Assembly: GCA_015956445.1 (NCBI GenBank)
Contig: WIUZ02000021.1
Span: 434,001-498,000 of the forward strand
Direction: 5' to 3'
DNA: 64,000 bases
From: Thelephora terrestris
Taxonomy: Eukaryota > Basidiomycota > Agaricomycetes > Thelephorales > Thelephoraceae
In this document: one piece after another, positions 8,530 through 59,307 of the stretch
How positions within the stretch are numbered: position 1 is the stretch's first letter
How the letters are laid out: the number at the start of each line of letters is the position of its first letter
Position numbers and translations under genes: made by a program
The notes under the pieces: model-generated
What the model saw: the letters and a program-made list of their open reading frames with translations, nothing else
What the model was told of the DNA's origin: nothing
Database searches by the model: none

Positions 8530-9230
8530 AGTCGAATTTATTGTTCTGCTCAACAGAGTTTACGGCACCGAGGCGGGGCATTTGGCGTTCGGTGCCTAAA
8601 ACAGCTCGAGAACCGATGCTTCTGAACCTTTTGCTGCAGCCGTTCCTTTTGTTTTGTATTTCGTGGTTGACCCGACAATAGAGAGTCTCGGGACACCCGT
8701 CGGTGGTCAGCCTTCGCTGAATCTTTTGTGATTGTGAATTAGGGTATTGGGAGAAAGTGCGAGTGTTTCGAAGCTTATTTGGGTGTAGCATTTGCTGTAG
8801 ACAGGAACTCCCGGCGTGGACTATGACTCAGCGACGATGGGGTATGTAGAACCCCAATCATGGATGAGTAGGTGTTCCGCGCTCCCAGTGCTCAGGAGCA
8901 AGAAAACTAGCGAGTTCACAGCTTCGGTTGTGCGGGCCTTCACGCTCACGGGCTGGAGAGCCGGTCCGAGGAATGCGTTCACCTTGCCCTTCTCGAAGCT
9001 TGATCCTCCGAACTCGTCTGGATCAAAGTGGAGTTGTAAACAATACAAAGTCTTCAGATTTTCGTGTACGATAGATGTACGTACACGTCAATCTACTCGG
9101 TCCGGAGCCGCCTCTATGACAGATCTAGGTTAGTGTCCGAACTCCGATAAGGTTTGGTGTTTTTCAGGTTTGTGTCGTGGTTGCCGGGGTGACGTTCGTG
9201 AAGCTTTGAGTGCCTATTGTATTGGTGAGT
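8530..9230. repeat. Segment X, oldest-context copy (duplicated at 30.6 and 40.3 kb)
   Basis: This stretch aligns by eye with 30559-30890 and 40336-40940. Shared landmarks are a CTGCTC..GTTTACG start, the TGAATCTTTTG/AATTAGGG block, and GGAACCCCAATC.TGGATGAG near 8850. On the minus strand, 9048-8821 reads as an open frame (HFDPDEFGGSSFEKGKV), which may be the end of a host gene I cannot name. In the copy at 40 kb that frame is not kept. Here it sits directly downstream of the PLP-homeostasis gene, the same order as in the 40 kb copy. Confidence 0.6.
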
Positions 9231-9305
9231 TGTGATACACGCAGTGGGGATGGTAAATACCAGGCTTGAACGAAGTCCACACCCTAGCTCAGGCATCCCT
9301 ATGTG

Positions 9306-12885
<3,580 letters not shown>

Positions 12886-14626: not shown

Positions 14627-15811
14627 TTAGACGGCTGTCTGCGGCGGCGTGTAGTGCAGCGATGGATCGGCGAAAGCTATCAAGTGTATGAGAGGTAAGT
14701 GCCCCCGAGTCAAGGACCTGGGAGGATCATTCATGCGACTCAACTCCATCTGCTCAAAGTAGTATTCTCTCAGTTCTGGTGGCGTCGGAGCCGCTGGCGC
14801 TTGTGAATGAAGACTAGGGTGCCTAATGATGTGATCATGACTGAGTGGCGAAGCCACATACACATCGATTAGGTTCACGGTATTAGGTTAGGCGGCGCAC
14901 CGAGGAAGATCGCGATGATGATCACGATATACTGCCAGACCGGGACGCCCCTGAGCTCTTCGGGAGGGAGGACACAGGTTTTGCTTTGAGATCGCAGTTG
15001 TACTTGAACAAGGTCGGGCGTTAGAATCTCCATATTCTGTCGAGATGATACGCACGGATCGGCATTCTTGGTCGTGGTCACATTGGGAACCAGCAGGTTT
15101 TGTGGATTCGCAGACGTTTGATGCGGGGTTGCAAAAAAGTTGAGGGGTCCTGCAGTTGTGGCGGGTGATCGTGGTGACGAACTCTTGTCCGTTTGGACCT
15201 GGGGAGATGTAATCTGAGGAGTCCAGTACGCAGGGTTGTCCGAGCACGACGTTCGCATGACTTTGACATCGACCCAGCCAGACGGGCGCATCATTTAACA
15301 AGAGCGAGAGGCTAGTTAGAAGAAGCAGACACACGAGCAAGCGGATCCAAGACACAGGCTTCCGTTGAAGTTCCAGTCGCTCGCAAGTTCCTCCCAATCC
15401 GATGGTGGGGCACACTGCCGATCCTGATTTATTTGACAAGGTTGTCCGACATCCACGAGCGGTTTACAACCTGCACCTTCGTCGGGACAATACGAACCAG
15501 GATCGCACAAAGGCGGGAGGACATCCCCATCTTTGTACCCGAACGGAAACAAATCGGTCCTGCATCGTTTCGGAATACAGGTACCGTTGGGGAGCCGAAC
15601 AGAAGGTCTTGTCGTCGCAGTCGTCTATGAACCTATGCGAGAGCTTGTCGATTCTGTTGTTTGAGGTTGAACAGGGGCTGCCCCCGGGAAGCGTGCCGCA
15701 CCGAGCCAGTGATAAGAGCGAGCAACAGATGTAAGCGCACACGAAGATCAGGGTGTGTGAGGATGGAAGTGGCAGGGGCATCAATGCAAGTGGCCAACTA
15801 CGACGAGCCAT
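14627..15811 (-). pseudogene. Cysteine-rich secretory/membrane protein gene, probably decayed
   Basis: Begins at the ATG at 15811 with MARRSWPLALMP and a hydrophobic stretch ending at LARCGT, a plausible signal peptide or anchor. Cys-rich modules follow: CSTSNNRIDKLSHRF, DDCDDKTFC, NGTCIPKRC, LCDPGSYCPDEGAGC, GQPCQINQDRQC, then after an intron ANVVLGQPC, NCRTPQLFCNP and CDHDQEC. Near 14960-14900 comes a short hydrophobic helix (VWQYIVIIIAIFLG), and then a cytoplasmic-like tail containing REYYFEQMEL. The pattern resembles a conserved but unnamed basidiomycete family; no function is known to me. Single-base frame changes near 15595 and 15000 interrupt the reading, so the gene is probably non-functional, though sequence error is not excluded. 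A truncated second copy lies at 30893-31555. Confidence 0.65.
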
Positions 15812-16540: not shown

Positions 16541-19500
16541 ATGGATGACAGCTCTAATCCCACCATAGTCCTCAGTTCAACTCAAGTCACCCACGTCGAG
16601 CATGAAGAATTTTTACCGCTTGCTCCCCTTACGTCATCGACTTCAAGTTTAAGCCCCGGGTACCAAGCCAAGTCCGACACCCGGCCCGCCCACAAAACTA
16701 CCGACGAGGGTCGATCAAGGACCACAATCCCTACCCACCACTTCACAAACACCACCTCTCCTGGCGAAAACAAACCTGGGTACGGAACCACCTCCCTAGC
16801 TCTCCTCGGTCCCGATGGCCCAAATTGCTCTCATTCTCGAGGACAATCGAGTGCTACCATGATCCTCACCGAGGAGGGAACAATTGACAACGGCTCTTCA
16901 GGTATCCCCCGTCTTCACCCAGCTCCTTCAAACATAGATACCGGCAACCTTGAGATTCGGACCAATGCCTGTGAGAAGGCTAGGAACAGGGTTAGGAGCT
17001 ATGCCAAAGGGATATTACATGAGGGCGACGGTGACGAGGAGATGGATCCGGAGCTCGATCCCGCTCAAGATACGAATCTCAATCCCGCCCCTTTCAAGTT
17101 CAGGCCACATCACCTTGCTTCCCTCGTTGACCCGAAGAATTTAGATGCTCTGGAAGCTTTTGGCGGAATCATCGGTCTCTTGGCCGGTCTCGGTGTTAAC
17201 CCTAGATGTGGACTTCCCATTGGTGGAAATGTTTCACGGCCTGAGCACCTCCCCACTGTTACCGTTTCCGGCTTTTCAGGAGGGAAGCTTCAAGGCCTGG
17301 AACAATACTCTTACGAAGGTCCCCCGTTTACCAGTACCATCGAGGACAGGCAACAGGTTTACGGTGTCAACGTCCTTCCCGTCCAAGGAAGCAGGTCCTT
17401 GCTCCAATTGATATGGCTTGCGCTCAAGGACAGAGTTTTGGTGGGCCCCACCCGTTTCATCAAGCCCATTAAATGTGTCGTTGACGCTCACCCCGCTCTA
17501 GATTCTGTTGTCTATTGCTGCGGTCATTTCCCTTGCCCTTGGTTTATTCCAGGATTTCGGCCCGGGCCGGGCGCCAGGAAAACCCCCGGTTGATTGGGTC
17601 GAGGGTGTGGCCATCATCGGTGCCATCTTCGTCGTGGTGTGTATCCGTCGATTACCGCTCGATGCATGTACGCTTACTGCCGCCAACAAAGGTCATGGTC
17701 GGTTCGCTCAACGATTGGCAAAAAGAACGCCAGTTCCGCATCCTTAACGACAAGAAGAAGGAGCGAGGGGTCAAGGTCGTTCGGTGCGGTGACGAACGTG
17801 TCATTGACGTCAAGGATTTACTCGTCGGCGACATCGCCCTCCTCGAACCTGGCGAGATCATTCCTTGCGATGGTGTCTTCATCTCTGGTCACAACGTTAG
17901 ATGTGACGAGTCGGGTGCAACTGGCGAATCAGACGCCATAAAGAAGGTCAGCTACGATGATTGTATTGCCCTCAGAGAGACCGCCAAGTACGCGACCGCC
18001 AACGGCCAGGGATCCGACACAACCCACACGCACGCAGACTGTTTCATGGTTTCTGGCTCAAAGATTAGAGAAGGTCACGGCAAGTATGTCGTTATTGCCG
18101 TGGGCCGCAAGAGCTTCAATGGCCGCACGATGATGGGTGCGCCGTCCAACCTTTCCCCGGGTTTCGACCCTAGCCTAACCCCCGGTTCGCAGCTCTTTGG
18201 GGCAGCCCCGAGCCGACCCCGTTGCAGAAGAAATTGAACAAACTGGCCGAGCTCATCGCTAGGATTGGGGGTGGTGCTGGTTTTGCCTTGTTTATTGCCC
18301 TCACGATCCGTTTATTCGCACAGTTTGGCACTGAAGAACCTGCTCGGTCAGCATCCGTCGTCTCATCGCCGCTATCTTCGGCTAACATACCCCCATAGTA
18401 CTGCTGATGAGAAAGGCATCGCCTTCACTCAGATCTTGATCATCTCTGTGACCCTCGTCGTCGTGGCTGTTCCGGAAGGCCTTCCGCTTGCGGTATCCCT
18501 CGCGCTCGCTTTCGCAACGAGGCGGATGACCACTGAAAAGATCCTCGTCCGCATCCTTGGCTCCTGTGAGATAATGGTAAACGCCTCCGTTGTCTGCACC
18601 GACAAGACTGGCACACTCACTCAAAACGTTATGACTGTCGTTGCCGGTTCGATTGGTGTCCATGGCAAGTTTGCTCGAAACCTCAAAGATAGCAAGAACC
18701 GCACGAACGCCCCGAATCAAGCTCAGGACTGTGACCTGCCTCCAGAACAAGACATTACCGAGGTTGCCGATGAGCCGCATATTGATTGCAAGGATGCAGA
18801 TGACTTCTCGATCGACCAGAGTCAAATCAGCTCTATCCTATCCCCTCAGCTCAGACGCCTTTTCAACCAGTCGATCGCCATCAACTCCACCGCCTTCGAG
18901 GGCGTCGACCCAGAGGCCGAGGAGGTAGTCTTCGTCGGATCCAAGACCGAGACAGCGCTTCTTCAGTTCGCGAAGGATCTCGGCTGGGATAACTGGAGGC
19001 ACACTCGTGATTCAGCGGAGATTTTCCAAATGATCCCCTTTTCCAGCGAACGGAAAGCCATGGGCGTGGTGATTCGCCTTCGTCCCGGCCGCTACCGTCT
19101 GTTCCTCAAAGGCGCCTCGGAGATCCTCACCAAGAAGTGTACCCGTCACGTTGTTGTCTCCAAGAACGCGGATCAGACACCAGACCCCCACTCGGAGATC
19201 GGGACCAAGGCCATCGACGAGACTACGAAGGACAACATCTCGAGAACGATCAGCTTCTACGCCAACCAGATGTTGAGGACTATCGCGTTGTGCTATCGGG
19301 ATTTCAGTTCTTGGCCTCCTCCCGGTGCCCAACTCCAGTCCGCGGATGAAGTTGGATACGACGACCTTCTCGATGACGTGATCCTGGTGGCCATCATCGG
19401 CATCGGTGACCCCCTTCGTCCTGGCGTCCGCGACGCTGTCGCTTCCTGCCGCCGTGCTGGTGTCACCGTCAAGATGTGTACCGGGGACAATGTCCACACC

Positions 19501-20704
19501 GCTCGCTCGATCGCTACTCAATGCGGGATCTACACCGCCGGCGGAATAATCATGGAAGGTTCCGCTTTTCGCGCTCTCGATCCGAAAGACCGTACCGAGG
19601 TCGTCCCTCGTCTTCAAGTCCTGGCCCGCTCTTCCCCTGAAGATAAAAAGCTACTCGTCGAGACCCTTCGCTCTCTTGGTGAAATCGTTGGCGTTACTGG
19701 CGACGGTACGAACGACGGCCCCGCTCTCAAGACGGCGAACGTCGGGTTTTCGATGGGTATCGCCGGAACTGAAGTCGCCAAGGAGGCTTCGGACGTCATT
19801 CTCATGGACGATAACTTCTCTTCGATTGTGAAGGCAATCATGTGGGGTCGTTGCGTTAACGACGCTGTTCCCAAGTTCTTGCAGTTCCAGATATCGACTA
19901 ACATAACCACTGTTATCATCACGTTTGTCTCCGCCGTCGCCTCGGGTGAGGAAGGGTCTGTTCTCACTGCCGTCCAACTCCTGTGGATCAACATTATCAT
20001 GGACACCTTTGCCGCTCTTGCGCTCGCTACCGACCCCGCCTCGAAATCCCTACTGGACAGGAAACCGGACACCCGTGGAACCCGGCTTTTTACTGCAGAC
20101 ATGATCAAGATGATCCTCGGACAGTCGATCTACCAAGTCGCCATCATTTTCACCTTGCACTTCCTTGGTCACGCGATCCTCGGCTTAGATCACTCAGACG
20201 AAGGTGACAAGATCGTTGCGACTCTCGTGTTCAACACCTTCGTGTTCGCCCAGATCTTCAACTCTGTCAATTGCAGGAGGCTCGATAACAAGCTCAACGT
20301 CTTCGAGGGTATCCTCAACAATTGGTATTTCATCGTGGTAACCTTTGTCGGTACGTATCTCCCTTTCTTCTCGCATCAAAGAACTTGAACGCTGAAAACC
20401 GTTTATAGAAATTTTTGGACAGATTCTCATCGTCTTCGTCGGAGGTACTGCCTTCCAAGTCATGCCTATCCCCGCTCGCGAGTGGGGCATCTCGCTAGCC
20501 CTCGGTTTCGCCTCCATCCCTCTTGGTGCTCTCATCCGATATATCCCTACCCCACCTCTTGAGCGTGCCTTCATTAGACTGAGGCTCATGAGTCCCGAAG
20601 TCATCCTACCGATCACCGGACCTAAAGCCCTCGAGTTCCCTGCCCTTGTGGCCTCTTCTGTTGGCGCTGGGTCGGCACCGTTGTCGGAGACGAGATCCAG
20701 CTGA
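16541..20704 (+). CDS. PMC1: PMC1-type Ca2+-transporting P-type ATPase, copy A (catalytically complete)
   Basis: P2B-type calcium pump, expected to move Ca2+ into the vacuole. Six exons (16541-17440, 17502-17636, 17692-18136, 18193-18346, 18399-20350, 20409-20704) give 1293 residues with no frame break. All hallmark motifs are present: actuator TGES (about 17931), VPEGLP in M4, phosphorylation motif DKTGTLTQN (about 18601), KGASE nucleotide site, MCTGDN, GDPLRPGV, hinge TGDGTNDGPALK (about 19700) and the M6 Ca2+ site NIIMD. The first ~200 residues are Ser/Thr/Pro-rich and lack membrane segments. The C-terminus is short after the last membrane helix. I chose the ATG at 16541 over 16448 because it aligns with the ATG of copy B. 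It is the only one of the three tandem copies with intact catalytic motifs. Confidence 0.92.
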
Positions 20705-25567: not shown

Positions 25568-28500
25568 ATGAAAAATAGCTCTAATCCAACCGTAGTCCTC
25601 ACTTCAACTCCAGTCACCCACGTCGAGCACGATGCCTTTTTACCGCTTGCTCCCCTTACTACGCCTTTGCTTGATGCCGGAGGCTCAAGTTCAAACTCTG
25701 ACACCCGGCCCGCCCCAGAAACCACCAATGAGGGTCGATCGAGGACCACAATCCCTACCCACCATTTCACAAACGTCACCGCTTCTTGCGAAAATAAACC
25801 TGGCTATGAAAGCACCTCCCTAGCTCTCCTCGGTTGCAATGGCCTAAATCGTTCTCATTCCCGAGGTCTATCGAGTGCGACCATGACCCTCATCGAGGAA
25901 GGAACATTTGACAACGGCTCTCCTGGTATCCCCCGTCTTCACCCAGCTCCTTCCAACATAGATCTCGTACATGAGGGGGGGGACCGTGACGAGGAGACGG
26001 AGCCCGATCCTGCCCCTTTCAAGTTTGGGCCATATCAACTTGCTTCCCTCGTTGATACGAAGAATTTGGGTGCTTTGGAAACCCTTGGTGGAATAATTGG
26101 TCTCTTGGCCGGTCTCGGTGTTGACCCCAATTCTGGACTGCTCATTGTTGAACGGCCATCGGAATCCGAGGATCCCCCCGCTGTCATTGTTTCCGAACGT
26201 TCAGGAGGGAAGGTCCAAGCCCCGGAACAATACTCTTACGAAGGCCCCCCCTTCACCAGTACCGTCCAGGACAGGGAACGGGTTTATGGTGCCAACGTTC
26301 TTCCCGTTCGAGGAAGCAGGCCTTTCCTCCGATTGATGTGGCTTGCGTTCAAGCACAGAGTCTCGGTGCGTCCCACTCGTTTCTCCGAGCTTTCAAATGA
26401 GCGGTCAACGCTCATTCCGCTCTAGATCCTGGCATCTATTGTTGCGGTCATCTCATTAGCCCTTGGTTTCTTCGGACTGGGGCGCGAGAAAGGAAAACCC
26501 CCGGTTGCTTGGGTCGAAGGTGTGGTCCACATCGGGGCCATCTTCATCGTGGTGTGTAGCTTTCGATTACCGCCCGTTTCATGTGCGCTTATTGCCATTC
26601 ACAAAGGTGATCATCTGCTCGCTTAGCGAATGGCAAAAGGAAAAGCAGCTCCGTATCCTCGACGACAAGAAGGAGGAGCGAAGCGTCAAGGTCATTCGGT
26701 GCAGTGAAGAACGTGATATCGACGCCAAGGATTTACTCGTTGGTGACATCGCCCTCTTCGAACCTGGCGAGATAATTCCTTGCGGTGGTGTCTTCATCTC
26801 CGGTCACAATGTCACATGTGACGAGTCGGGTGCAACCGGCAAATCAGATGCCATAAAGAAGGCCAGCTACGATGATCGTGTTGCCCTCAGAGAGACCGCC
26901 AACGGCCAGGGATTCGATGCCGCACACACGGGCACAGACTGCTTCATGGTCCCTGGCTCAAAGGTTCTCGATGGTCATGGCAAGTATGTCGTTATAGCTG
27001 TGGGCCAGAAAAGCTTCAACGGCCGTGTCACGATGAGTACGTCATATGATCATTTCCGAATTTCTAGGACCCTAGCCTGACCGCTCGTTCCACAGCTCGA
27101 GGAGACCCCGATCCGACCCCACTGCAGAAAAAATCGAACGAACTAGCCGAGGACATCTCGAAGATTGGCTGCATTGCTGGTCTCGCATTATTTACTGCCT
27201 TGACGATCCGTTTCTTCGCACAATTAGGACCGGGACAACCCTATCGGTGAGCGACCATTGTCCCACCGCCTCCATTTTCCGCTAACATGTCCTCATAGTA
27301 CTACCAGCGAGAGTTTTATCACCTTCACTCAAATTTTGATCATTTCTGTAACCGTCATCGTCGCCGCCGTCCCGGAGGGCCTTCCGCTCGCAGTAACCCT
27401 CGCGCTTGCTGTCGCTACGAAGCGGATGACCGCCGACAAGCTCCTCGTGCGTATCATTGGTTCCTGTGAGACAATGGCAAACGCCTCCGTTGTCTGCACC
27501 GATAAGACCGGAATACTCACTCAAGGCGCCATGACTGTCGTCACCGGTTCGATTGGTGTCCATGGCCAGTTCCCTCGAAACCTCAAAGACAGTAAGGCTT
27601 GCACGAACGCCCCGGATCAGGATGAAGATCGTGACCCCTCTCCCGAACAAGACATCACTGAGGCCGTCATTGAACCCCAAGTACATCCCGAGCACGCAGA
27701 TGACTTCTGGATCGACCAGAGCGAGATCAGATCTATCTTGTCCCCTCAGCTCAGACGGCTTTTCAACCAATCGATCGCGATCAATTCCACCGCCTTCGAG
27801 GACATCGACCCCAAAACCAAGGAGGTGGTCTTCGTCGGATCCAAGACCGAGACAGCACTTCTCCAGTTCGCCAAGGATCTCGGCTGGGAAAACTGGAAGC
27901 ACACTCGTGATTCGGTGGAGATTGTCCATATGATCCCCTTTTCCAGCGAACGGAAGGCCATGGGCGTGGTTATCCGCGTTTGTTCCGGCCACTATCGTCT
28001 GTTTCTCAAAGGCGCCTCGGAGATCCTCACTAAGATGTGCACCCGGCATGTCGTCGTTTCTAAGGACGCGGATCAGTCACAAAACCCCAACTCCGAGATC
28101 GACACCAGGGCCATCGATGAGACTGCGAAGGACAACATCAGAACGATCATCTCCCACGCCAACCAAACGTCGAGGACGATCGCGCTGTGCTATCGGGATT
28201 TCAGTTCCTGGCCCCCTCCTGGTGCCCAGTTCCAATCTGCGGATGAGATATCATACGACCACCTTTCCGATAACGGGATCCTGGTGGCCATCATCGGCAT
28301 CGGGCACCCCCTTCGTCCTGGCGTCTGCGCTGCTGTAGCTGCTTGCCGCCGCGCTGGAGTCACCGTCAAGATGTGTACTGGAGACAACGTCCTCGCCGCT
28401 CGCTCGATCGCTACTCAATGCGGGATTTACAACGCTGGCGGAATAATCATGGAAGGTCCTGATTTCCGTGCCCTCGATCCGAAAGCCCGCACAGAGGTCG

Positions 28501-29583
28501 TGCCTCGTCTCCAGGTCCTGGCCCGCTCTTCCCCCGAGGACAAGAAGATACTCGTCGAAACCCTGCGCTCCCTTGGTGACATCGTCGGCGTTACTGGCGG
28601 CGGTACGAACGACGGCCCCGCTCTCAAGACAGCGGACGTCGGATTTTCCATGGGTATCGCCGGAACCGAGGCCGCCAAGGAGGCTTCGGGCATCATCCTC
28701 ATGGACGACAACTTTTCTTCCATCGTGGAGGCCATCACATGGGGTCGTTGCGTTAACGACGCGGTTCGCAAGTTCTTGCAATTCCAGATATCGGCCAACA
28801 TAACCACCGTCATCATCACGTTTGTCTCCGCCGTCGCCTCGGGTGAGGAAGGGTCTGTCCTCACTGCAATCCAACTCCTGTGGGTCAACATCATCATGGA
28901 CACCTTTGCTGCTCTTGCCCTCGCTACCGACCCCGCCTCAAAATCCCTACTGGACAGGAAGCCGGACACCCGTGGAACACGGCTTTTTACTGCAGACATG
29001 ATTAAGATGATCCTCGGACAATCTATCTACCAGGTTGCCATCATCCTCATCTTCCATTTCCTTGGCCATTCGATCCTCGGTTTGGATCACTCAGACGAGG
29101 GTGACAAGATTGTTGCAACCCTTGTGTTCAACGCATTGGTTTTCGCCCTGGTCTTTAACTCGTTCAATTGCAGGAGGCTCGATCAAAGGTTCAACATCTT
29201 CGAGGGTATCTTTAATAACTGGTATTTTGTCGTGGTGATCTTGATCGGTACGCCTCCCCCGTCCTTTCCATGGTAAGGTACCTCAATGCTGAAGACCGTC
29301 TGTAGAAATGGGTGGACAGATTCTTATCGTCTTCGTCGGAGGTGCTGCCTTTCGAGTCAAGCCTATCCCCGCTCGCGAGTGGGGTATCTCACTAGCCCTC
29401 GGTTTCGCCTCCATCCCTCTAGGTATTCTCATCCGATGCATCCCTACCCCACCTCTTGAGCATGCCTTCATCAGACTGAGGATCATGAGTCCCGAAGTCA
29501 TCCTGCCAATCACCGGACCCAAAGCTGTCGAACCCCCTGCCCTCGTGGCCTCCTATGTTGGCGCTGGGTCGTCACCGTCATAG
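25568..29583 (+). CDS. PMC1-type P-type ATPase, copy B, catalytic motifs substituted
   Basis: Same six-exon structure as copy A: 25568-26365, 26426-26551, 26607-27036, 27096-27246, 27299-29247, 29306-29583, giving 1243 residues with no frame break. VPEGLP in M4, KGASE, MCTGDN and the M6 NIIMD site are kept. Three signatures are changed: the actuator motif reads TGKS (TGES in A), the phosphorylation loop DKTGILTQG (DKTGTLTQN in A), and the hinge TGGGTNDGPALK (TGDG in A). GDPLRP has become GHPLRP. In the P-type family the Glu of TGES is needed for dephosphorylation, and the first Asp of TGDGxND helps bind Mg2+, so normal pumping is unlikely. The phosphorylated Asp itself remains. Length differences from A in coding parts are multiples of three. 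The C-terminus ends about seven residues earlier than A. Splice sites look normal, so a product is expected if transcribed. Confidence 0.88.
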
Positions 29584-30178
29584 GAGACGAGATTAAGCTG
29601 AATCTCGGCACCAGGCCAGACGACGCTTATTACAAGCGGCGCGGTCCCCAGTAACAATCCCTCTCAGTCCAATCTTTACTTTCGTTCCCTTTCACGACCA
29701 CGCCCATCCTTACGATGGAGAACGCCCGCTCGCATTTAGTCTATCAAAACATCCCGCCTCCTCTTTGTATCATCACGACCAGACGAACCCCCTGCGACCG
29801 TACTTTGTACTTCAAGACAATCTTCTTCGCACGCCTTTAACGGATCTATTCCCCTCCACGCGATCTCCTTGATGGGACACCGCTCTATCATTCAGGGTTA
29901 ATTTCATTCACGTTGTTGCGATGCATTCATTTTTTGTTTGTTTGTTGTACTTTACTCCGGTGGGAAAGGTGTTCAAGTTCTCCCTCAGGCTCTGTTTCCG
30001 CGTTACCCGTAATTTGTATAAATACCATAGTCCACGAAGACCATTAAATACCGAGCAGTCTGAATATCATACCCGTTATCCCCTATAGCCGGCATGGAAA
30101 CCAATAAGACATTTTGGAGGCTTGAATGGTCGTTGAATCGACAATCACGGGGTTGTGGGGAATCAAATGACGCTCATC
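29584..30178 (+). repeat. 3' flank of copy B, shared with A and C
   Basis: Nearly identical to 39603-40196 behind copy C, and more distantly related to 20705-21235 behind copy A. It includes an unspliced-looking open continuation past the stop (GACGAGATTAAGCTGAATCT). Confidence 0.75.
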
Positions 30179-30558
30179 TTTGCGTGCTCTATAGTTACAT
30201 TGTACTAGAGTCAAATATGTATATATTCGAAGTATGGATTGGTTACAGGATAGCGTAGGCAATGAGTGGAAGTGTCGGGCGGGAGCCCCGAAGGACTCTC
30301 AGGCCTCAAGATGTGGAATCCGGGGTTACAGGCAGCTGCGTGGGCGGGTGGGACCCACGAAGCTGGCTCGGAAACCTGTTCTCGTGACCGAAGCTGGTTG
30401 TTGTCAGCGTAGTTTGAATATTTTGTTTGGTTCTTCGTGAGGAGTGGTGGGTGGGAAAGAAAAACGAGGGCGATGGAGAGGCGACCGAGTGTGAGGAGGT
30501 GGTGATGCTCTGGAAAGAGCAACACGTGCCGAATCACACTCGATTCGCAAAGACATAA
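30179..30558. other. Repeat-derived spacer, no gene
   Basis: The part around 30340-30375 (CAGCTGCGTGGGCGGG..CCACGAAGCTGGCTCGG) recurs at 32570-32606. The part around 30440-30540 is related to 32690-32790, and inverted to 24700-24790. No coding gene is seen. Confidence 0.5.
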
Positions 30559-30890
30559 GCCTTCCGTAAGGGCAGTCGTGGACCGTGCCGCTTGTCAGCG
30601 ACTTAACTATACAGTATGGCTCTGCTCGGCGAAGTTTACGCCGCTGAGGAAGGGTATTTGCCGATGTGTACTCAAGGTTCTGGGCCGACCGTGATCGTCT
30701 TTCTGGTGATTTTTCGGCCTCACGTCGATTTGCACAATGGAGACGCTTGGCGCCGGGAATGCCCGTCGATGGCCAGTTTTCTTTGAATCTTTTGCAATTG
30801 CGAATTAGGGAAGCGGAAGGTAGTGCGCGATTCAAACGCTTATTCAAGGGCAACCCTCGTTGCGGACAAAAGATCCTGGTGTTGTCTTGC
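30559..30890. repeat. Segment X, partial copy
   Basis: Near-identical to 40336-40666 (CCTTCCGTAAGGGCAGTCGT start, TATGGCTCTGCTCG, GGGCAACCCTCGTTGCGGAC end) and a more distant relative of 8530-8800. It stops abruptly near 30890, where sequence of the cysteine-rich gene begins. Confidence 0.75.
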
Positions 30891-30892
30891 AA

Positions 30893-31555
30893 AACAGTTA
30901 AGGCGTTCTGCAGTTATGGCAGGTGATCGTGGTGACGAATTCTTGTCCGTTTGGACCCGGAGAGATGTAACCGCAGGAGTCCAGTGCGCAGGGTTGTCCG
31001 AGTACGACGCTCGCATGACTTTGAAATTGACCCAGCCAGACGGGCACATCATTTAACGAAATCGAGAAGCCAGTTAGAAGAAGCGGACACACGAGCAAGC
31101 GGATCCAAGACACAGGCTTCCGTTGAGGTTCCAGTCGCTCGCAGGTTCCTCCCAATCCGATGGTGGAGCACACTGCCGATCCTGGTTTATTTGACAAGGT
31201 TGTCCGACATCCGCGAGGGTTTACGCCCGGCACCTTCGTCGGGACAATACGAACCAGGATCACACAAAGCCAGGAGGAGGTCCCCATCTTTGTTCCCGAA
31301 CGGAAACAAGTCGGTCCTGCATCGTTTCGGAATGCAAGTACCGTTGGCGGAGCCGGAACAGAAGGTCTTGTCGTCGCAGTCGTCTATGAACCTATTCGAG
31401 AGCTTGTAGATTCTGTTGTTTGAGGTTGAACAGAGGCTGCCTTCGGGAAGCATGCCACACCTGGCAGGCCAGTGGTACGAGGAAGCAACAAATGTCAGCA
31501 CACACAAAAATCAGAACGTGCGAGGATAGAAGCTGAAGTCGGTCACGAAAAGCCA
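30893..31555 (-). pseudogene. Truncated second copy of the cysteine-rich protein gene
   Basis: Aligns with about 15130-15811 of the first copy. It starts MAFRDRLQLLSS and a hydrophobic stretch, then shows CSTSNNRIYKLSNRF, DDCDDKTFCSGSANGTC, LCDPGSYCPDEGAG and, after an intron, VVLGQPCALDSCGY. It ends near 30893 at the junction with segment X and so lacks the second Cys module, the membrane helix and the tail. The signal region and the first Cys block are out of frame with each other, so the copy is not functional. Confidence 0.75.
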
Positions 31556-32277
31556 TAGAAGGAGGGGTGGGATTTTCAGAGTCCGATTGAGCTGTGACGA
31601 ACGAAAAGCGGAAGCAAATGAAGTTGGGCGATCGATTTCAGAAAGCGGTAGCCTCAGGTGGCCTCAAGTAAAAATTGCCAAGGGACGCCTCTGAAAGGGG
31701 ATTCACTCAGCCTTTTCAAATTCTGCAAAACCACGGAGGGTACCATATATAGGATGATATTTCATCAAATTGATGCCGGTCTAGATTGTATCGTAATGCA
31801 AAAACGAGAAGTTTTGCTGAGGCAGTATCAAGCTTGTGAACAGTGCTGAAGTGCCATCTAGGCATGCGTCGCGACTGAAATACTCGCTAAAATACGACCA
31901 GAGAGTACTTTGCTTTCACTTTTGACATACGATGACAGGGGTGCCCACAGCGGGTTTGTAAAATGACCGCCCGTCGCGGCCGTGGAGGGTCGACAGACGC
32001 CTCCCAGTTGCGACGGCAAAAGCGACGTCAAGTGTTAGTGAACCTCAAGCGATTAATCGACTATCGCCGATACACTGCAAACACACAGTCTACCTCATAT
32101 CAGGAATAGGTGAATTGATATGCTGGAGAACGCCAGTTGACTCTTGCACATACTCCGTTGTGATTCGTGGCCCGGGTGGGGAATACAGACGTGTGTTGAA
32201 GGACAGGGAAGGAACACTACAAAAAGTGCGCTCGATGTGGCGAGTTTTATCCTGTCAAAAAATAGGTTCACCCGATT
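31556..32277. other. No gene recognised
   Basis: Only short open frames occur (the longest about 60 codons at 31658-31849), with no recognised motif and no clear repeat match. Confidence 0.4.
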
Positions 32278-32426
32278 GTGAGTCGGTGGGTGGTGAAGGT
32301 ACCCTCTGTGATGAGCGATATACGATTTGGCAGGGGGAGGCTAACGGAGAACAGACCAGTGTTATGGGCTCTCTCCGCCTAGAATCGAACCCTCCTTCCA
32401 ACCCCGACTGCGTGTTATTCATGAAT
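32278..32426. repeat. Dispersed repeat R1, copy 2
   Basis: Partner of 21524-21672, same orientation, differing at scattered positions. Confidence 0.6.
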
Positions 32427-32857
32427 CTTAGTTTGTCTCTCTGGTGATTAGTGGTGCGCAATCAAGATGAAAATTTTATTCGTTAGGTACATAGGGAATG
32501 AAGAGTGGGATAACCGGGCAAAAGCCCGCAGGGCTTTTGGCAGGCCGAAGGGATCGGGCGTTGGAGGCCAGCTGCGTGGGCGGGAGGGTCCACGAAGCTG
32601 GCTCGGCGGCCGTATCCTTCGGTCAAGTTTGATATGAGCCAGCGAGATTGAAGGTGTTTACTGGAGTAAGCGTCTTCACGAAGAGGATGTGGAGGGTGGG
32701 TAAAAGAGAGAAAGGAAGAGGAGGGTGAGACGGAGAGGGAGGATTATGATACGGCGGTGTAGAGGGACACATGCCGGATCACCTTCCGAGCCGCAACGAC
32801 ATTTCTCCAGATTTCTCCGACTTTGCTACTTCCCTCCGCCGAGACCGGCAACCTCCC

Positions 32858-33000
32858 ACAAAGGGATGAAAAGCCTCCAGATCAGCCAACCCAGCCATAC
32901 TGAACAAGCTCCGGTCCCAAAAGACGTAGGCATAAACCGCCCAGAAAATACACGATAGTGAGGGTGACGAGGCCGCGGTTACCAACTTGTTGGCGAGCGG
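32858..33000. repeat. Dispersed repeat R2, copy 3 (partial)
   Basis: Matches the first half of the unit at 24838-25111, preceded by TTTGCTACTTCCCTCCGCC as in copy 2. The preceding ~80 nt are inverted relative to copy 2. Confidence 0.55.
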
Positions 33001-35000
33001 CGAGCGGCCGCCTCGACCTGATCACCCTGAGCTTTCTGATGAAATCTGGAACCTTATTGAACGGTGCTGGGGCGGTGACCAATCGTGTCCCCGATAGACA
33101 ACGTTCTCGCTATACTTCAGGAGCAGCTCTCGAAACCCGTCTGCGTGTAGTCGACAAACTCGATGTACGACCGACTCCCTATGCGCCATTGCTCTGACTT
33201 GGGCGACACTCCAGTCAAGCCACCTAGATTGGCAAAACCTGATTTCGTTTTTACATCCTCGTATTTAGCAGAGTTTTATAAAGTCGCCGTCCGGAAACTC
33301 ATACGTCATTGCAAGTTTCGCATCTCATTGCCGTCAAGGATTTCCAGGTCCAGTTTTCACCCACAGAACAACTTGGGCGGGATACCTGTGTCAGTCGCTA
33401 CCTCAGCGATCTCCCAACTTCAGCGGTAGGGCGGAATAAGCTTTGCGTGGGCCGTCCCCCGCAGCACTGGACGGGCGCTCGGTTTGACTGGCGTGAATCA
33501 TTTGCCACAGTGTCACATGAGTACTTGGGTGCCCATACTTGCGGTGTAACATCCAAATGGCAGGATTGTGACTGTGTTGCTGTACCATCCATTGTACACG
33601 GGACATCGTCAATGAGTGATTGTCCGTGGGATGTACAAAGTGTACACTTGAATCTAGGTGAATATTCGTGGACCGTTAAGGAAGGCGAAGGACCCCGACC
33701 GCTCTGGAGGGTCAGGAACACCGCGAAATGCGTGAACTGGCACCCTTCTACGGCGGATACATATATTTTCTGTCTAACCTATTCCTGCGGACAGTCACTC
33801 AATCGTGCCCGGAGGCACTCCAGTATATACTCGTCATAATCTCCCACGTATCGGGGCCGAGCTACCCCAGCCCCCGAGTTCGAGCGTGGGGGAATGTATA
33901 CCACCTGGGCTTTGCACCTGTCAAGCCGTCACATGTCAAGATACTTTCTACGAGGCTACACGTCATTCTAGGAGGCGAAATTCGTAGATTTGGACAATGG
34001 TGCACAGGAAAAGAGGATGTATTCTCTCGCCCCCAACCCTAGTAGGCGGGCGGCGTTCGCACGGCCGCTATAGGCGCAGTGTCACTGTTCCCTATTCCGG
34101 ACGTATATGAAACGTCCAGAGCCCGCAGCGGAAACTTTGGTCGCAGGGGATGGGTTTTTTGGAATCGAGCGTTGGTCTGTATTACAGTATAGAACCCTCT
34201 CCAAACTGCACGCTTGATGATTCTGGCGAGAGTTGGAGCTGCGAAAGGGTATAGGCGTCGTGAGGAAGGGCGTTGTAAGGTAGGTAAGCCCTTGGAAGTT
34301 GATTGAAGTAACCGATCGAGCGCCAAGAGGACCGACAGGTGATGTGCTTTGTTTACCATACTTATACCATGGCCTGTACAGATCCAGATTTGGATGGCTA
34401 CGAGCAAGGACTGGGCCAGGTCGCCCCACTTCGTTATGAACTGGCGTAGATGGACCGGTGCCCCTCTCTGCAAGGTATGAGGCGCGCCTAAGCGATGAAT
34501 TTGATAGTGTATTGATGTACACGTGGCGGAAAATTCTTTTATACTCCTATTGAGGGATCTACGGTAGTTAGATTGACAAAGATATGGAGCGTCCAGAGCA
34601 CGCAGCGGAAACTTTGGTCACAGGGGATGGGAACCCTCTCCAAAACCGAAATTTACGGGTAAATTGTGGGCTGTGCAAAGTGACGCGGCGGACGTTTCGT
34701 TTGGAAATGGCAAAATGATCATTTGTGGAGATGATTGTGAAAGATGCCGATCGATGTAAACCGGCCAGAGGGGGATTTCCAAAGGCCAAGACCGTCCGAG
34801 TTTTGAATGGACTTCAAACTACTAGTACATAGGCGCACACGAGGCGCACATGGCCTAGCTCGAATGTAGTCACGCCTTGATGTGCCCCGAGATTCAAAGA
34901 AAGATAAGGATCTGCTCCATTGGCCTGGGGGTCTAAGTAACAGGCCGTGGCTTGGCCGTTATGGGGAAATGCGCCATGTTATCCCCTACAAATCGTAGGG
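33001..35000. other. Repeat-rich spacer upstream of copy C
   Basis: A 177-codon frame (33309-33839) shows no recognised motif and is probably chance. About 50 nt at 34106-34155 (CGTCCAGAGC.CGCAGCGGAAACTTTGGTC) recur at 34587-34640. The part 34845-34965 matches the region upstream of copy A (16125-16260). No gene is recognised. Confidence 0.45.
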
Positions 35001-35006
35001 CCTTGG

Positions 35007-35378
35007 CGCTACAGCTATTTTCAAAACGATAGACCGTTTTCCGTAGGATACAGCCCCAAGTTTTTGTTCACCTTTTGATGGTATTGGGGCCCGGCAACCG
35101 GCATTGCGGCACCTGCCGGTTTGTACACGGGCCTCCAATAGGTCGTAGATTCACCCAGTTCCTTTGATTCTCGGTCCTCAGGGTCTCTAGCTACCCGTGG
35201 TCGATGCCAGGGATGTATTAAAGTTTTCCCGGGAGGGCGGGTGAACTACGTTGAGGGACTTGGTCCGGCACTAGGCGTCATGCCGAAATGCCGAGCCCCA
35301 ATACCATCAAAAGGTAAACAAAAATTCGGGGCTGTATCCTACGGAAAACGGTCTATCGTTTCGAAAACAGCTGTAAAT
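35007..35378. repeat. Foldback (inverted-repeat) element
   Basis: Two arms of about 115 nt (35007-35122 and 35264-35378) are reverse complements with few mismatches, joined by a 140-nt loop. The outer ends are ACAGCT and AGCTGT. The arms include CGATAGACCGTTTTCCGTAG and its complement. No coding capacity, and no convincing target-site duplication by eye. It could be a non-autonomous DNA transposon relic, or an inverted duplication made by recombination. It lies about 430 nt upstream of the coding start position of copy C. Confidence 0.75.
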
Positions 35379-35807
35379 AAAATCATATCACCGCCCCCCC
35401 TCCGTAGTAGAGTATACACAGCATGCATGAAAGGACAAGATACAAGAGCGTCCGTGAGCTTGCGATTCAAACGAACCTCTCTTTCGAAACCAGTGCCGAG
35501 TGCCACCTTCGACTCCAGGACCCGCGCACAAGTCGCGATCGTCACCCCTTGTCCAAACGGCACGTGCCAAGGCTCCCGGTAATTTGCGAGGGCTGTGCTA
35601 CTTTTAAGGTCTCACTCGGCGCTAAGGCTACTCGTATCCTTTAGACCGGACCTCGTTGGAGCTTTGCAAGTTGCAACGGTGCCCTCAGATGGTGGCCGAA
35701 GCCTGGGCGCCTGAACCGGAGGCATATATACACCCCTCGACTTCGCTGTTTTCCCGTCCGCGCTTTCTTTCTCAACCATCCTCTCACGACTTTTAATCCG
35801 TTCCAAT

Positions 35808-38800
35808 ACGGACAATAACTCCATCCTAGCTAAGCATATTCCTCAGTTCAGCTCTAGTCTGTCCTCTTCAATCCCCCTTGCGTCATCGGGCGGCTATCGG
35901 CCCGAAATCGGAATACTCATGATTACCGGAGGTCCAAAGCTCCCCGTCCACAAAACTACCGACGAGGACCCGCCGAGTCCCATAATTATCACCCAGTCCT
36001 CTGTCCACTCTACAAGCACCCCCGCTCCTGGCCACGCCCCTTTCAAGTTTGGGCCACCTCAACTTGCTTCCCTCGTTGACCTGAAGGATTTAGATGCTCT
36101 GGAAACCCTTGGTGGAATCTTTGGTCTATTGTCCGGCCTCGGTGTTAACCCAAGATGTGGACTTCCCATTGGTGGAAATCTACCACGGCCTGGGGATCCC
36201 CCCGCCGTCATCACTTCCGACCACCCAGGAGGAGAGTGCCAAGCTCCGGATCAATACTCTTACGAAGGTCCTCCCTTCAGCGGAACCATCGAGGATAGGC
36301 GACAGGTCTACGGTTTAAACGCCCTTCCCGTTCGAAAAAGCAGGTCTTTGGTTCAACTGATGTGGCTTGCGCTCAGGCACAGAGTCTCGGCGAGTCCCAC
36401 TCGTTTCTCCGAGCCTTTCGAATGAGCCGTTAACGCTCATTCCGCTCTAGATTCTGGCGTCCATTGTTGCGGTCGTTTCCTTAGCCCTTGGTTTCTTCGG
36501 CCTGGGGCGCGGGACAGGAAAACCCCCGGTTGCTTGGGTCGAAGGCGTCGTCCACATCGGGGCCATCTTCATCGTGGTGTGTATCTTCCGATTACCGCCC
36601 GATTCATGTGCGCTTATTGCCGTTTACAAAGGTGATCATCTGCTCGCTTAGCGAATGGCAAAAAGAACGGCAGCTCCGTATCCTCGACCACAAGAAAAAG
36701 CAGCGAAGGGTCAATGTCATTCGGTGCAATGACGAACGTGTCATTGACGTCAAGGATTTACTCGTCGGTGACATCGCCCTCATCGAACCTGGCGAGATAA
36801 TCCCTTGCGATGGTGTCTTCATCTCCGGTCACAATGTCACATGTGACGAGCCGGGTGCAACCGGCAAATCAGATGCCATAAAGAAGGCCAGCTACGATGA
36901 TTGTGTTGCCCTCAGAGAGACCGCCAACGGCCAGGGATTCGATGCCGCACACACGGGCACAGACTGCTTCATGGTCTCTGGCTCAAAGGTTCTCGATGGT
37001 CATGGCAAGTATGTCGTTATAGCTGTGGGCCAGAAAAGCTTCAACAACGGCCGTGTCACGATGGGTGCGTCATATGATCATTTCTGAATTTCTAGGACCC
37101 TAGCCTGACTGCTCGTTCCACAGCTCGAGGAGACCCCGATCCGACCCCGCTGCAGGAGAAATCGAACCAACTCGCCCAAGTCATCTCGAAGATTGGCTGT
37201 GCTGCTGGTCTTGCCTTGTTTACTGCCTTGATGATCCGTTTCTTCGTGCAATTAGGGACTGGAGAACCCGCTCGGTTAGTGTCCATCGCCCCACGGCCTC
37301 CATTTTCCGCTCACACGTCCTCATAGTACTGCGAACGAGAAAGGCATCGCTTTCACTCAGATCTTGATCATCTCTGTAACTCTCGTCGTCGCCGCCGTTC
37401 CGGAAGGCCTTCCGCTTGCAGTCACCCTCGCGCTCGCTTTCGCTACGAAGCGGATGTCCGCCGACGGGCTCCTCGTCCGTATCATTGGGTCCTGTGAGAT
37501 AATGGCAAACGCCTCCGTTGTCTGCACCGATAAGACCGGAATACTCACTCAGAACGTCATGACTGTCGTCGCCGGTTCAATTGGTGTCCATGGCCAGTTC
37601 CCTCAAAACTTCGAAGACAGTAAGGCTCGCACAAACGCCCCGGATCAGGATGAAGATCGTGACCCCTCTCCCGAACGAGACATCACTGAGGCCGTCGATG
37701 AGCCCCAAGTAAATCCCGAGCATGCAGATGACTTCTGGATCGACCAGAGCGAGATCAGCTCTATCTTATCCCCTCAGCTCAGACAGCTTTTCAACCAATC
37801 GATCGCAATCAATTCCACCGCCTTCGAGGATATCGACCCCAAAACCAAGGAGGTGGTCTTCGTCGGATCCAAGACCGAGATAGCACTTCTCCAGTTCGCC
37901 AAGGATCTCGGCTGGGAAAACTGGAAGCACACTCGTGATTCGGCGGAGATTGTCCATATGATCCCCTTTTCCAGCGAACGGAAGGCCATGGGCGTGGTTA
38001 TCCGCGTTTGTTCCGGCCACTATCGTCTGTTTCTCAAAGGCGCCTCGGAGATCCTCACTAAGATGTGCACCCGGCATGTCGTCGTTTCTAAGGACGCGGA
38101 TCAGTCACAAGACCCCAACTCCGAGATCGACACCAGGGCCATCGACGACAACATCTCCAGAACGGTCATCTCCCACGCCAACCAAACGCTGAGGACGATC
38201 GCGCTGTGCTATCGGGATTTTAGTTCCTGGCCCCCTCCTGGTGCCAAACTCCAGTCTGCGGATGAAGCTGTATACGACGACCTTTTCGAAGACGTGATCC
38301 TGGTGGCCATCATCGGCATCGGGGACCCCCTTCGTCCTGGCGTCTGCGATGCTGTGGCTTCTTGCCGCCGCGCTGGAGTCACCGTCAAGATGTGTACTGG
38401 AGACAACGTCCTCACCGCTTGCACGATCGCTACTCAATGCGGGATTTACACCGCTGGCGGAATAATCATGGAAGGTCCTTATTTCCGCGCCCTCGATCCG
38501 AAGGACCGTACCGAGATCGCCCCTCGTCTCCAGGTCCTGGCCCGCTCTTCCCCCGAGGATAAGAAGATACTTGTCGAGACCCTCCACTCTCTTGGTGAGA
38601 TCGTTGGCGTGACTGGCGGCGGTACGAACGATGGTCCCGCTCTCAAGACAGCGAACGTCGGGTTTTCGATGGGTATCGCTGGAACCGAGGTCGCCAAGGA
38701 GGCTTCGGATATCATCCTCATGGACGACAACTTTTCTTCCATCGTGGAGGCCATCATATGGGGTCGTTGCGTTAACGACGCGGTTCGCAAGTTCTTGCAA

Positions 38801-39602
38801 TTCCAAATATCGGCCAACATAACCACCGTCATCATCACGTTTGTCTCCGCCGTCGCCTCGGGTGAGGAAGGGTCTGTCCTCACTGCAATCCAACTCCTGT
38901 GGGTCAACATCATCATGGACACCTTTGCTGCTCTTGCCCTCGCTACCGACCCCGCCTCGAAATCCCTACTGGACAGGAAACCGGACACCCGTGGAACACG
39001 GCTTTTTACTGCAGACATGATTAAGATGATCCTCGGACAATCTATCTACCAGGTTGCCATCATCCTCATCTTCCATTTCCTTGGCCATTCGATCCTCGGT
39101 TTGGATCACTCAGACGAGGGTCACAAGATTGTTGTGACCGTTGTGTTGAACACATTGGTTTTCGCCCTGGTCTTTAACTCGGTCAATTGCAGAAGGCTCG
39201 ATCAAAGGTTCAACATCTTCGAGGGTATCTCTAATAACTGGTATTTTGTTGTGGTGATCTTGATTGGTACGCCTCCCCTTTCCTTTCCATGGTAAGGTAC
39301 CTCAATGCTGAAGACCATCTGTAGAAATTGGTGGACAGATTCTTATCGTCTTCGTCGGAGGTGCTGCCTTTCGAGTCAAGCCTATCCCCGCTCGCGAGTG
39401 GGGTATCTCACTAGCCCTCGGTTTCGCCTCCATCCCTCTAGGTGTTCTCATCCGATGCATCCCTACCCCACCTCTCGAGCGTGCCTTCATCAAGCTGAGG
39501 ATCATGAGTCCCGAAGTCATCCTGCCAATCACCGGACCCAAAGCTGTCGAACCCCCTGCCCTCGTGGCCTCCTATGTTGGCGCTGGGTCGTCACCGTCAT
39601 AG
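35808..39602 (+). CDS. PMC1-type P-type ATPase, copy C, catalytic motifs substituted, start codon changed
   Basis: Exons by homology: 35808-36389, 36451-36576, 36632-37064, 37124-37274, 37327-39266, 39325-39602; in frame throughout (1169 codons plus stop). The codon aligned with the ATG of copies A and B is ACG (35808). The next in-frame ATG is at 35919 and would give 1132 residues. Intron 1 has a GC donor at 36390 where A and B have GT. Like copy B it carries TGKS, DKTGILTQN and TGGGTNDGPALK, while GDPLRPGV, VPEGLP and the M6 NIIMD site are normal. An in-frame deletion removes five codons relative to A around GAIDDNISRT-like sequence (about 38140). It keeps 3' flanks nearly identical to copy B. 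It could be a translated pseudoenzyme from the internal ATG, or an early pseudogene. Confidence 0.82.
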
Positions 39603-40335: not shown

Positions 40336-40940
40336 CCTTCCGTAAGGGCAGTCGTGGACCGTGCCGCTTGTCAGCGACTTGACTATACAGTATGGCTCTG
40401 CTCGACGAAGTTTACGCCGCTGAGGAAGGGTATTTGCCGTTGTGTACTCAAGGTTCTGGGCCGACCGTGATCGTCTTTCTGTTGATTTTTCGGCCTCGAC
40501 GTCGATTTACACAATGGAGACGCTTGGCGCCGGGAATGCCCGTCGATAGCCAGTTTTCTTTGAATCTTGTAATTGCGAATTAGGGGAGCGGGCGGTAGTG
40601 AGCGATTCAAACGCTTATTTAAGGGCAACCCTCGTTGCGGACAAAAGATCCTAGTGTGGTCTGTGACGCAACGATGACGGGCGATGTGGAACCCCAATCG
40701 TGGATGAGCGGGTGCTGCGCGCGCTCGGCGTTCGGGGGCATGGAATCCAGATAGTCCATAGCTTCATGATCATGATCTGGAAAGCCGGCCAAAAGTACGT
40801 TCGCCTCGCCCTTCCGTCGTCGATCCTCAAAATAAAAAATTCGCCTAGTTCAAAGCGGGTTCTGAGGAGGCAAACATTACTAAGTCTTCAGCTTTGGGGC
40901 CGATTTCCGTGTACAATATGGGTACGTACATGTTGATCTG
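40336..40940. repeat. Segment X, copy at 40 kb
   Basis: Same unit as 30559-30890, but it extends further and matches 8850-9080 as well (GGAACCCCAATCGTGGATGAG near 40690). The minus-strand frame kept at 8.8-9.0 kb is not kept here. Confidence 0.7.
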
Positions 40941-41124
40941 CTCGGTCCAAAGCCGCCTCGATCAGGCATCGCCAGATAACAACTATGTCTGGCGTTTTGC
41001 AGGTGTTTGGTAGTCTCCGGGGCAACGTTCGTGGGATTGAAATAGTGTCTTGGATGTCTGTTGCATTGGTGAGTCGTGATTGTTGCGCGATACTAAACCT
41101 AAATCAGACCGATGCTCTCTAGGA

Positions 41125-41850
41125 AGGCTATTTTCAAGTTACCTTCTTGGCTCCTTCTCCAAAAATACCGGCCTTGACACCGACGATATCGCTCTCTGCT
41201 CTAACAGTCTCAGGATAACTTGGCACCCCCTCACACCCGCCCCGTCTGTCCACCCCTTCATTCTTAAACCTGATCTGTAACCCGTCTCGCATCTTCTTCA
41301 GCAGGTCAAAGTCGCGGTTTTAGTCAACGATAAGGGTAGTCTGATTGCCATCAACTTACGTGAGTGAAGTCGCAGACAGGACAATGGGTCGCGCTTGGGG
41401 TCGCGCGGGATTTGCCAATTCGACGCCTTGTGGGGAGGGTCAAAGTTTTGAATCATCTCTGGAGGTGTAGAGTTGGATGGGAAGGTTGAGAAGCGATTCT
41501 TCTCTGTCCAGCTTGTGTTAAGCGCACTCGCGAGGTTTGGGACGGAGTTGTTCTTTAGAACTTTCAGACACTTTTCAGCGGTCCCAAACCTCCACACGGC
41601 CCAAACAAGAATTGGATGTCTTCCGGACCACATGGAGAGTAGTGACTCACTTCTTCCGCTTTTCCGACCAGCTCTCGCGAATGATTCTCACCAAATGAGG
41701 ATGTCCGGCGTCATGCCAGGCTTGAATATCAACAGTTGGCTTGGGTTTGGACACCCACCTTACACCGCTACTGGGTACACCAAAACGCTGCAGGCCGAGA
41801 CCTGGAGGCGAAGACATCGGCGAGTGCCGAACTCGGAACACTCCCTCCGA
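41125..41850 (-). pseudogene. Decayed copy of the PLP-homeostasis protein gene
   Basis: Aligns on the same strand with 9306-10190. The 3' end reads CTTCTTGGCTCCTTCTCCAAAAATACCGG..GACGATATCGCTCTCTGCTC against the intact gene's C-terminus. The middle retains GGTCCCAAACCTCCACACGGCCCAAAC (about 41580), and the 5' part retains TTCTCACCAAATGAGGATGTCCGGCGTCATG. The family motifs are interrupted in all frames. The flank at 42060-42170 matches 10680-10790, so the duplication covered the whole gene and its upstream region. Confidence 0.75.
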
Positions 41851-59116: not shown

Positions 59117-59307
59117 TCACTGATGAACCAGGACGAAAACGGCCAATCGAGGGAGCCGGCGAGAGCACGGAAGGCGGCGGTCTTCAAGTCCCAGAGCTGC
59201 AAAAGCACCTGAGCGATTAAGAAGGACTCTGATGTGGATGGTGCACGCCATAGCAAGAAGGGGGGGTTAACAATGTTAGGAAATAGCGCCACCGCTAGAA
59301 AACTCAC
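58980..59307 (-). repeat. Tandem duplication of the terminal intron-exon unit of the STAND gene
   Basis: Read on the minus strand, GTGAGTTTTC at 59307 and GTGAGTTCCC at 59120 each begin a related unit about 187 nt apart. Both contain a GCACCATCCACATCAGAGTCC-like block and a TTTTG.A/TACCTCTGGG block. In the distal unit the acceptor CAG of the proximal one is not conserved. The stop codon of the gene lies within the GTGAGT of the second unit. Confidence 0.65.

Follow-up and report, generated by a model that had tools for sequence, protein, structure and literature searches.

Two neighbouring Ca2+-ATPase paralogues of Thelephora terrestris with altered catalytic motifs, open reading frames and apparently unequal constraint

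Three genes related to Ca2+-transporting P-type ATPases lie in the same orientation, on the forward strand, in a stretch of DNA from the basidiomycete Thelephora terrestris, and two of them have lost residues of three catalytic signature motifs while their reading frames have stayed open. The window, by which we mean the whole stretch of 64,000 nucleotides (nt) that was analyzed, covers positions 434,001 to 498,000 of contig WIUZ02000021.1, which is contig 14 of an assembly of 40.6 Mb in 60 contigs (GCA_015956445.1). Copy A (16541..20704; six exons, 1293 amino acids (aa)) is a canonical P2B (PMC1-type) Ca2+-ATPase gene, reading TGES, DKTGT and TGDGTND at the three motifs. Copy B (25568..29583; six exons, 1243 aa) and copy C (35919..39602; six exons, 1132 aa counted from the first in-frame ATG) both read TGKS, DKTGI and TGGGTND. 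Elsewhere in the genome, two intact relatives carry the canonical motifs: copy D (contig 1, 1142 aa) and copy E (contig 45, 1362 aa).

One six-exon model, with five introns of 51 to 61 nt and no in-frame stop, fits all five copies. The introns of B (26366-26425, 26552-26606, 27037-27095, 27247-27298 and 29248-29305) are all of the GT-AG type; those of C lie at 36390-36450 (with a GC donor), 36577-36631, 37065-37123, 37275-37326 and 39267-39324, and the two copies differ in intron length at intron 1 alone (60 versus 61 nt). The usual marks of a decayed pseudogene (frameshifts, stops, lost introns) are absent from B and C, whose frames are open and whose five introns are all present. The open frames described in the initial annotation of the stretch are thus confirmed, and its statement that coding lengths differ by multiples of three holds for the net lengths of exons 1 to 5 among A, B, C and D, the DNA alignment of the variable amino-terminal part being too poor for counting single indels.

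In A, B and C, exons 1, 3 and 5 carry the Pfam domains in the order Cation_ATPase_N, E1-E2_ATPase, Cation_ATPase, HAD hydrolase and Cation_ATPase_C. B and C are 92.3% identical in DNA over 4.17 kb, introns and 3' flank included, and the identity of either to A is 81-82%. Upstream of about 36036, the alignment of the 5' part of C with B breaks down. Tree building grouped the copies as (A,(B,C),(D,E)), with a support of 100% for B+C and of 70% (nucleotide) or 91% (codon) for D+E. On these sequence grounds B and C are, by descent, full-length Ca2+-ATPase paralogues of the P2B class (PMC1/PMCA/ACA). A carboxy-terminal stretch after the last membrane segment (WNDAI...) is present in E; A (window positions 20409-20704), B, C and D do not have it. 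Flanking stretches are duplicated too (15129-15769 and 30887-31532, 89% identity; 8696-9752 and 40539-41552, 65%), which shows that the tandem array grew by copying more than the pump genes.

The motifs were located by a six-frame motif scan and read codon by codon. In copy A, TGES starts at 17920, DKTGT at 18601 and TGDGTND at 19696. TGKS replaces TGES, the phosphatase motif of the A domain, at 26835..26846 in B and 36860..36871 in C; DKTGI replaces DKTGT, the phosphorylation motif, with its aspartate retained, at 27501..27515 in B and 37529..37543 in C; TGGGTND, in which the first aspartate is gone, replaces TGDGTND at 28593..28613 in B and 38612..38632 in C. The altered codons of B and C are identical (GAA to AAA, ACA to ATA and GAC to GGC), the canonical copies A, D and E having GAA, ACA (ACG in D) and GAC. 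The initial annotation had read these motifs correctly in all three genes of the window, and it was also right that PEGLP, the M6 NIIMD segment and the phosphorylatable aspartate are kept. Indeed, PEGLP, KGASE and NIIM are retained in A, B and C, and the aspartate of DKTG in all five copies. The residues of the single Ca2+ site that persist in B and C are the glutamate of the M4 PEGLP and the asparagine and aspartate of the M6 NIIMD, which we equate with E412, N869 and D873 of the PMCA2 Ca2+ site as given in excerpts of PMC12488499.

As a yardstick of conservation we used 30 prokaryotic P2 ATPase loci from a search of 94 genomes, 75 of which had a match. Among the loci with a letter at the position, the glutamate of TGES is present in 29/29, the last threonine of DKTGT in 29/29 and the first aspartate of TGDG in 30/30; the same three residues are found in two aligned PMCA/ACA sequences and in A, D and E. 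The first aspartate of TGDG is a ligand of Mg2+, and mutation of the SERCA equivalents of the three residues (E183, T353 and D703) strongly impairs the cycle. A review places the glutamate in the phosphatase motif of all pumps (PMC10654040). The HAD/P domain scores 53.9 bits against Pfam in A, but 33.2 in B and 30.7 in C, while the carboxy-terminal membrane domain keeps its score (115.2, 112.2 and 106.5). Three of four sequence features of a functional P-type ATPase are missing from B and C (DKTGT, the TGES glutamate and the first aspartate of TGDGxND), and pump catalysis has very probably been lost in both. It could be argued that B and C still pump, slowly or with a different ion, through an unusual catalytic site, as they retain the phosphorylatable aspartate, the Ca2+-site residues and the nucleotide-site lysine. 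We consider this very improbable: all three altered residues are invariant among the relatives examined, the equivalent SERCA mutations are harmful, and replacements on the stem that leads to the pair show no avoidance of conserved columns (see below).

Two technical or mutational origins of the motif changes were considered and rejected. The three residues are invariant in relatives and the same codons occur at two separate loci, so that the changes are not base-calling noise. For comparison, error-like differences between contig 40 and the A region amount, over the 9.8 kb examined (99.5% identity), to 44 gap openings and 3 mismatches; contig 40, of 26.8 kb, is probably an unpolished redundant copy of that region. 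Repeat-induced point mutation (RIP), or a similar directed process, does not fit either, as C-to-T in a single context does not dominate the spectrum of changes in B, in C and on the stem, and one of the three key substitutions ran from A to G. Among 30 of the 35 PF00122 loci of the genome, DKTGI was found only in B, in C and in two copies on contig 5, and B and C alone had TGGGTND. This is a partial check, as the TGDG stretch lies outside many of these loci and the TGES stretch was covered in part of the 30 only. The other five PF00122 matches are three in E, A and contig 40 and two weak ones on contigs 16 and 56.

Further residues have changed in B only. HPLR replaces DPLR (aspartate to histidine; 28305..28316), a glycine replaces the invariant aspartate of the A-domain PCDG motif (26784..26786), and the threonine of TGDNVLTAR has become alanine. 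At all three positions every prokaryotic relative with a letter agrees on the canonical residue.

The conserved-column test covered 868 columns with letters in A to E and at least 20 prokaryotic letters, and counted, for each lineage, the replacements that fell on columns conserved across the 30 prokaryotic loci to at least a given threshold. On 95% columns, 5/47 changes of the B/C stem were found (5.6 expected), 3/25 of B (3.1) and 0/19 of C (2.3; p 0.086), compared with 0/32 in A (3.8), 1/65 in D (7.4) and 0/12 in E (1.5). The corresponding counts on 80% columns were 8/47 (9.7), 5/25 (5.4) and 0/19 (4.0; p 0.012) for stem, B and C, and 2/32 (6.7), 3/65 (12.9) and 0/12 (2.5) for A, D and E; those on 50% columns were 10/47 (14.0), 7/25 (7.7) and 3/19 (5.8; p 0.12), and 3/32 (9.6), 7/65 (18.9) and 0/12 (3.7). 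Changes on the stem and in B thus show no avoidance of conserved pump positions, whereas C shows a tendency to spare them, like working pumps; given 18 lineage-by-threshold comparisons and the few changes in C, its p values are suggestive only.

Selection was examined by codon models starting at LASLVD (one codon earlier in the first model) and restricted to columns with letters in every copy. The first model had 1050 codons; later sets end before MSPEV of A and comprise 1036 codons, 816 after removal of conversion tracts, and 766 after additional removal of a cluster of B-divergent codons. A, D and E were treated as one canonical class in the branch model, and their dN/dS (omega) was 0.104-0.123 across data sets (0.123 on 1036 codons). 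The B/C stem had an omega of 0.38-0.49 (0.488 on 1036 codons), different both from the canonical class (p 1.5e-8) and from 1 (p 0.014). On the same codons omega was 0.517 in B and 0.369 in C, and a value of 1 was rejected for each (p 0.0017 and 8.1e-5, respectively). Masking left omega of C at 0.299 on 816 codons (p 2.2e-4 against 1) and 0.354 on 766 (p 0.0031), and that of B at 0.592 (p 0.052) and 0.562 (p 0.067). The joint hypothesis that both equal 1 was rejected on all three sets (p 2.6e-8, 1e-5 and 3e-4 on 1036, 816 and 766 codons). The first model, without E, had given 0.465 for B and 0.443 for C.

Changes private to one copy were counted where the codon differed by a single step, as was the case for 57 of 71 in B, 50 of 60 in C, 124 of 144 in A and 102 of 123 in E. 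Nonsynonymous and synonymous changes number 39 and 18 in B, 0.89 of the neutral ratio (p 0.39), and 26 and 24 in C, 0.44 of neutral (p 0.0037); the canonical copies have 51 and 73 (A, 0.28 of neutral) and 20 and 82 (E, 0.10). The private filter discards any synonymous change that another copy happens to show too, and these figures therefore overstate the nonsynonymous share. Taken together, selection is relaxed in the B/C lineage and the two copies, although jointly non-neutral, behave differently. Omega and the column test support purifying selection after the loss of catalysis with moderate strength for C; the support for B is weak, and gene conversion complicates the reading of both copies.

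The initial annotation had proposed that B and C are both retained as pseudo-pumps, acting as a Ca2+ buffer, a sensor or a partner of copy A. The pairwise omega between B and C, at 0.449, is well below 1 (p 1e-8), neutrality of B is rejected on all codons, the frames are open and the Ca2+-site residues are kept; that part of the proposal stands, and the pair differs from the decayed copies of contig 5 discussed below. What does not stand is the equal treatment of the two. Private changes of B fit neutrality, its masked omega is barely distinguishable from 1, it has lost the further invariant residues listed above and its replacements fall on ultra-conserved columns as often as expected by chance; C has a damaged start and one damaged splice donor. 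Retention of both copies is, in our view, improbable.

The comparison of B with C also reveals a mosaic. Their differences per 70 codons range from 2 to 47 of 210 nt, with 3/210 around TGKS and 47/210 at the 5' end, and site patterns place patches shared with E at codons 0-100 in both copies, and in B also at 600-650 and 700-760. As B and C are nearly identical around TGKS, conversion could have spread the TGKS change from one to the other. The earlier argument that the three changes, being shared, predate the duplication is therefore unsafe: shared changes need not all be that old, and patchy conversion weakens every dN/dS argument.

The genome also contains P-type ATPase copies in evident decay. 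On contig 5, at about 980 kb and 997 kb, two tandem SERCA-like copies read SDKTGI and, by eye, have single-base gaps throughout; three blocks, together about 7.4 kb long, show 89-93% identity between the two, and their similarity to SERCA ends before TGDG. Considered as a second pseudo-pump pair, they were rejected in view of their frameshifts and became a control for decay; they are ordinary pseudogenes, so that the genome has another tandem family of P-type ATPase copies that are dead. Contigs 11 and 60 hold partial PMC1-like copies, about 93-95% identical to E, in which the DKTGT stretch is present twice; smaller scrambled PMC1-like pieces lie on contig 23 and one short piece on contig 12. 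A scan against E for frameshifting gaps counted 7 in 1802 aligned nt of one contig 5 copy and 9 in 1611 of the other, 3-9 gaps in 234-1802 nt across decayed copies, and, in the open genes, 8 in 3280 nt of A, 3 in 3226 of B and 6 in 3204 of C; gaps in variable stretches pair up, so that these counts are too noisy as a test and serve as illustration only. Six decayed copies have one stop in total within aligned codons. In a neutral simulation at the private counts, the probability of finding no stop was 0.096 for B, 0.19 for C, 0.019 for both and 0.045 for the stem.

The explanation that we favour, tentatively and at somewhat less than an even chance, is that B and C lost pump catalysis on their shared lineage, after which C persisted as a constrained, non-pumping paralogue binding Ca2+ and nucleotide and B was largely released. 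Both would be tandem descendants of a PMC1-type (P2B) Ca2+-ATPase. Selection for P-type pump chemistry would have been lost on the shared lineage, where the TGES glutamate needed for dephosphorylation, the last threonine of DKTGT and the first aspartate of TGDG changed. A protein of this type may still bind Ca2+ in the single M4/M6 site, and probably ATP through the retained lysine of KGASE, as the binding residues are kept; the phosphoenzyme would not be formed and discharged, and transport would cease. After the split, C would have evolved as a constrained membrane protein, and B would have drifted with its frame still open.

Several points weigh against this explanation. Conversion within the family can mimic constraint and hold frames open. 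Copy C appears to have lost its ancestral start codon, as the ATG aligned by eye at about 35808 reads ACG and the frame has its first ATG at 35919. Its intron 1 (36390..36450; GCGAGT...CTCTAG) has a GC donor, unlike the GT donors of A, B, D and E; the unspliced frame stops at 36425. An open frame in one copy alone means little at the simulated probabilities, and the absence of stops in B and C proves little in any case, since the decayed copies are nearly stop-free. Finally, the avoidance of conserved columns by C reaches p 0.012 in one of 18 tests and is weaker at the two other thresholds.

The chief rival explanation holds that B and C are both young pseudogenes, tandem duplicates released from selection, whose catalytic codons mutated at random and whose frames are open through short time and overwriting by intact copies. 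The chance rate of stem and B replacements on ultra-conserved columns, the neutral private ratio of B, the conversion tracts, the damaged start and donor of C, and the decayed P-type copies in the same genome (the contig 5 pair and the fragments on contigs 11, 60, 23 and 12) would all be expected of it. It accounts less well for the rejection of neutrality in C on three nested data sets (p 8.1e-5 to 3.1e-3) and in B and C jointly (p 2.6e-8 to 3e-4), for the conserved columns that C avoids, for net exon length differences in multiples of three, and for the low probability of no stop in B and C together. We regard it as a real possibility, falling short of probable.

Under the preferred explanation of a constrained C beside a released B, a retained pseudo-pump is more likely to be C than B, which looks nearly released. 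The more specific claim, that C is a true pseudo-pump which selection maintains as a membrane protein binding Ca2+ and nucleotide while its sister is being lost, is possible but rather doubtful; the binding is predicted from retained residues, and any cellular role of C would be putative.

Two other elements of the window were recorded. Upstream of C and outside the gene lies an element of 366 bp (35010..35375, no strand assigned) with terminal inverted repeats of 87 bp that are 93% alike, resembling a young miniature inverted-repeat transposable element (MITE). Counting the window copy, the genome has six places where 363 or more of the 366 bases are matched, with identities of 87-100%, and there are many partial matches as well. 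At 59276-61543, on the minus strand, an open frame resembles fungal NLR-type genes in having a tetratricopeptide-repeat region together with a match to nSTAND, though a weak one that scores under the curated cut-off.

Dead enzymes, pseudokinases among them, are well known. No described case of a natural P-type ATPase pseudo-pump was found among the matches listed by searches of an open-access library, two of them broad and covering the best 10 of 5,358 and 12 of 9,216 papers. A pair of dead pumps, one apparently constrained and one drifting, beside the intact copies A, D and E would allow a direct test of the fate of duplicates; if C is merely a pseudogene, the case is an ordinary one.

Among known systems, fungal PMC1, plant ACA and animal PMCA are closest, the best solved relatives by sequence being plasma membrane-type Ca2+-ATPase 8 (8qmp) and PMCA1/2 (6a69, 9gsd). 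B and C resemble them in domain order and in the Ca2+ site formed by the M4 PEGLP and the M6 N...D (described for PMCA2 in excerpts of PMC12488499), and differ in having lost the TGES glutamate, the last threonine of DKTGT and the first aspartate of TGDGxND. Caenorhabditis elegans CATP-1, for which pump-independent roles were proposed (Ruaud and Bessereau 2007, cited in PMC11631496), is, with KdpB, among the nearest precedents, in that a P-type ATPase would act there without pumping. CATP-1, however, keeps the DKTGT aspartate (D409), its impaired forms were laboratory constructs, and its pump activity matters for another phenotype (PMC11631496). Apicomplexan guanylyl cyclases, which have a P4-ATPase domain appended, were rejected as a further precedent, as the activity of that domain is reported to be needed. 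KdpB is a P-type pump that is stopped through its TGES motif, by serine phosphorylation (excerpts of PMC9651954, PMC7535926 and PMC10654040); there, an active pump is reversibly regulated, whereas the loss in B and C is inherited. A further comparison lies within the same genome: the SERCA-like copies of contig 5 are likewise tandem P-type duplicates that read SDKTGI, but they carry single-base frameshifts and lose similarity before TGDG, unlike B and C.

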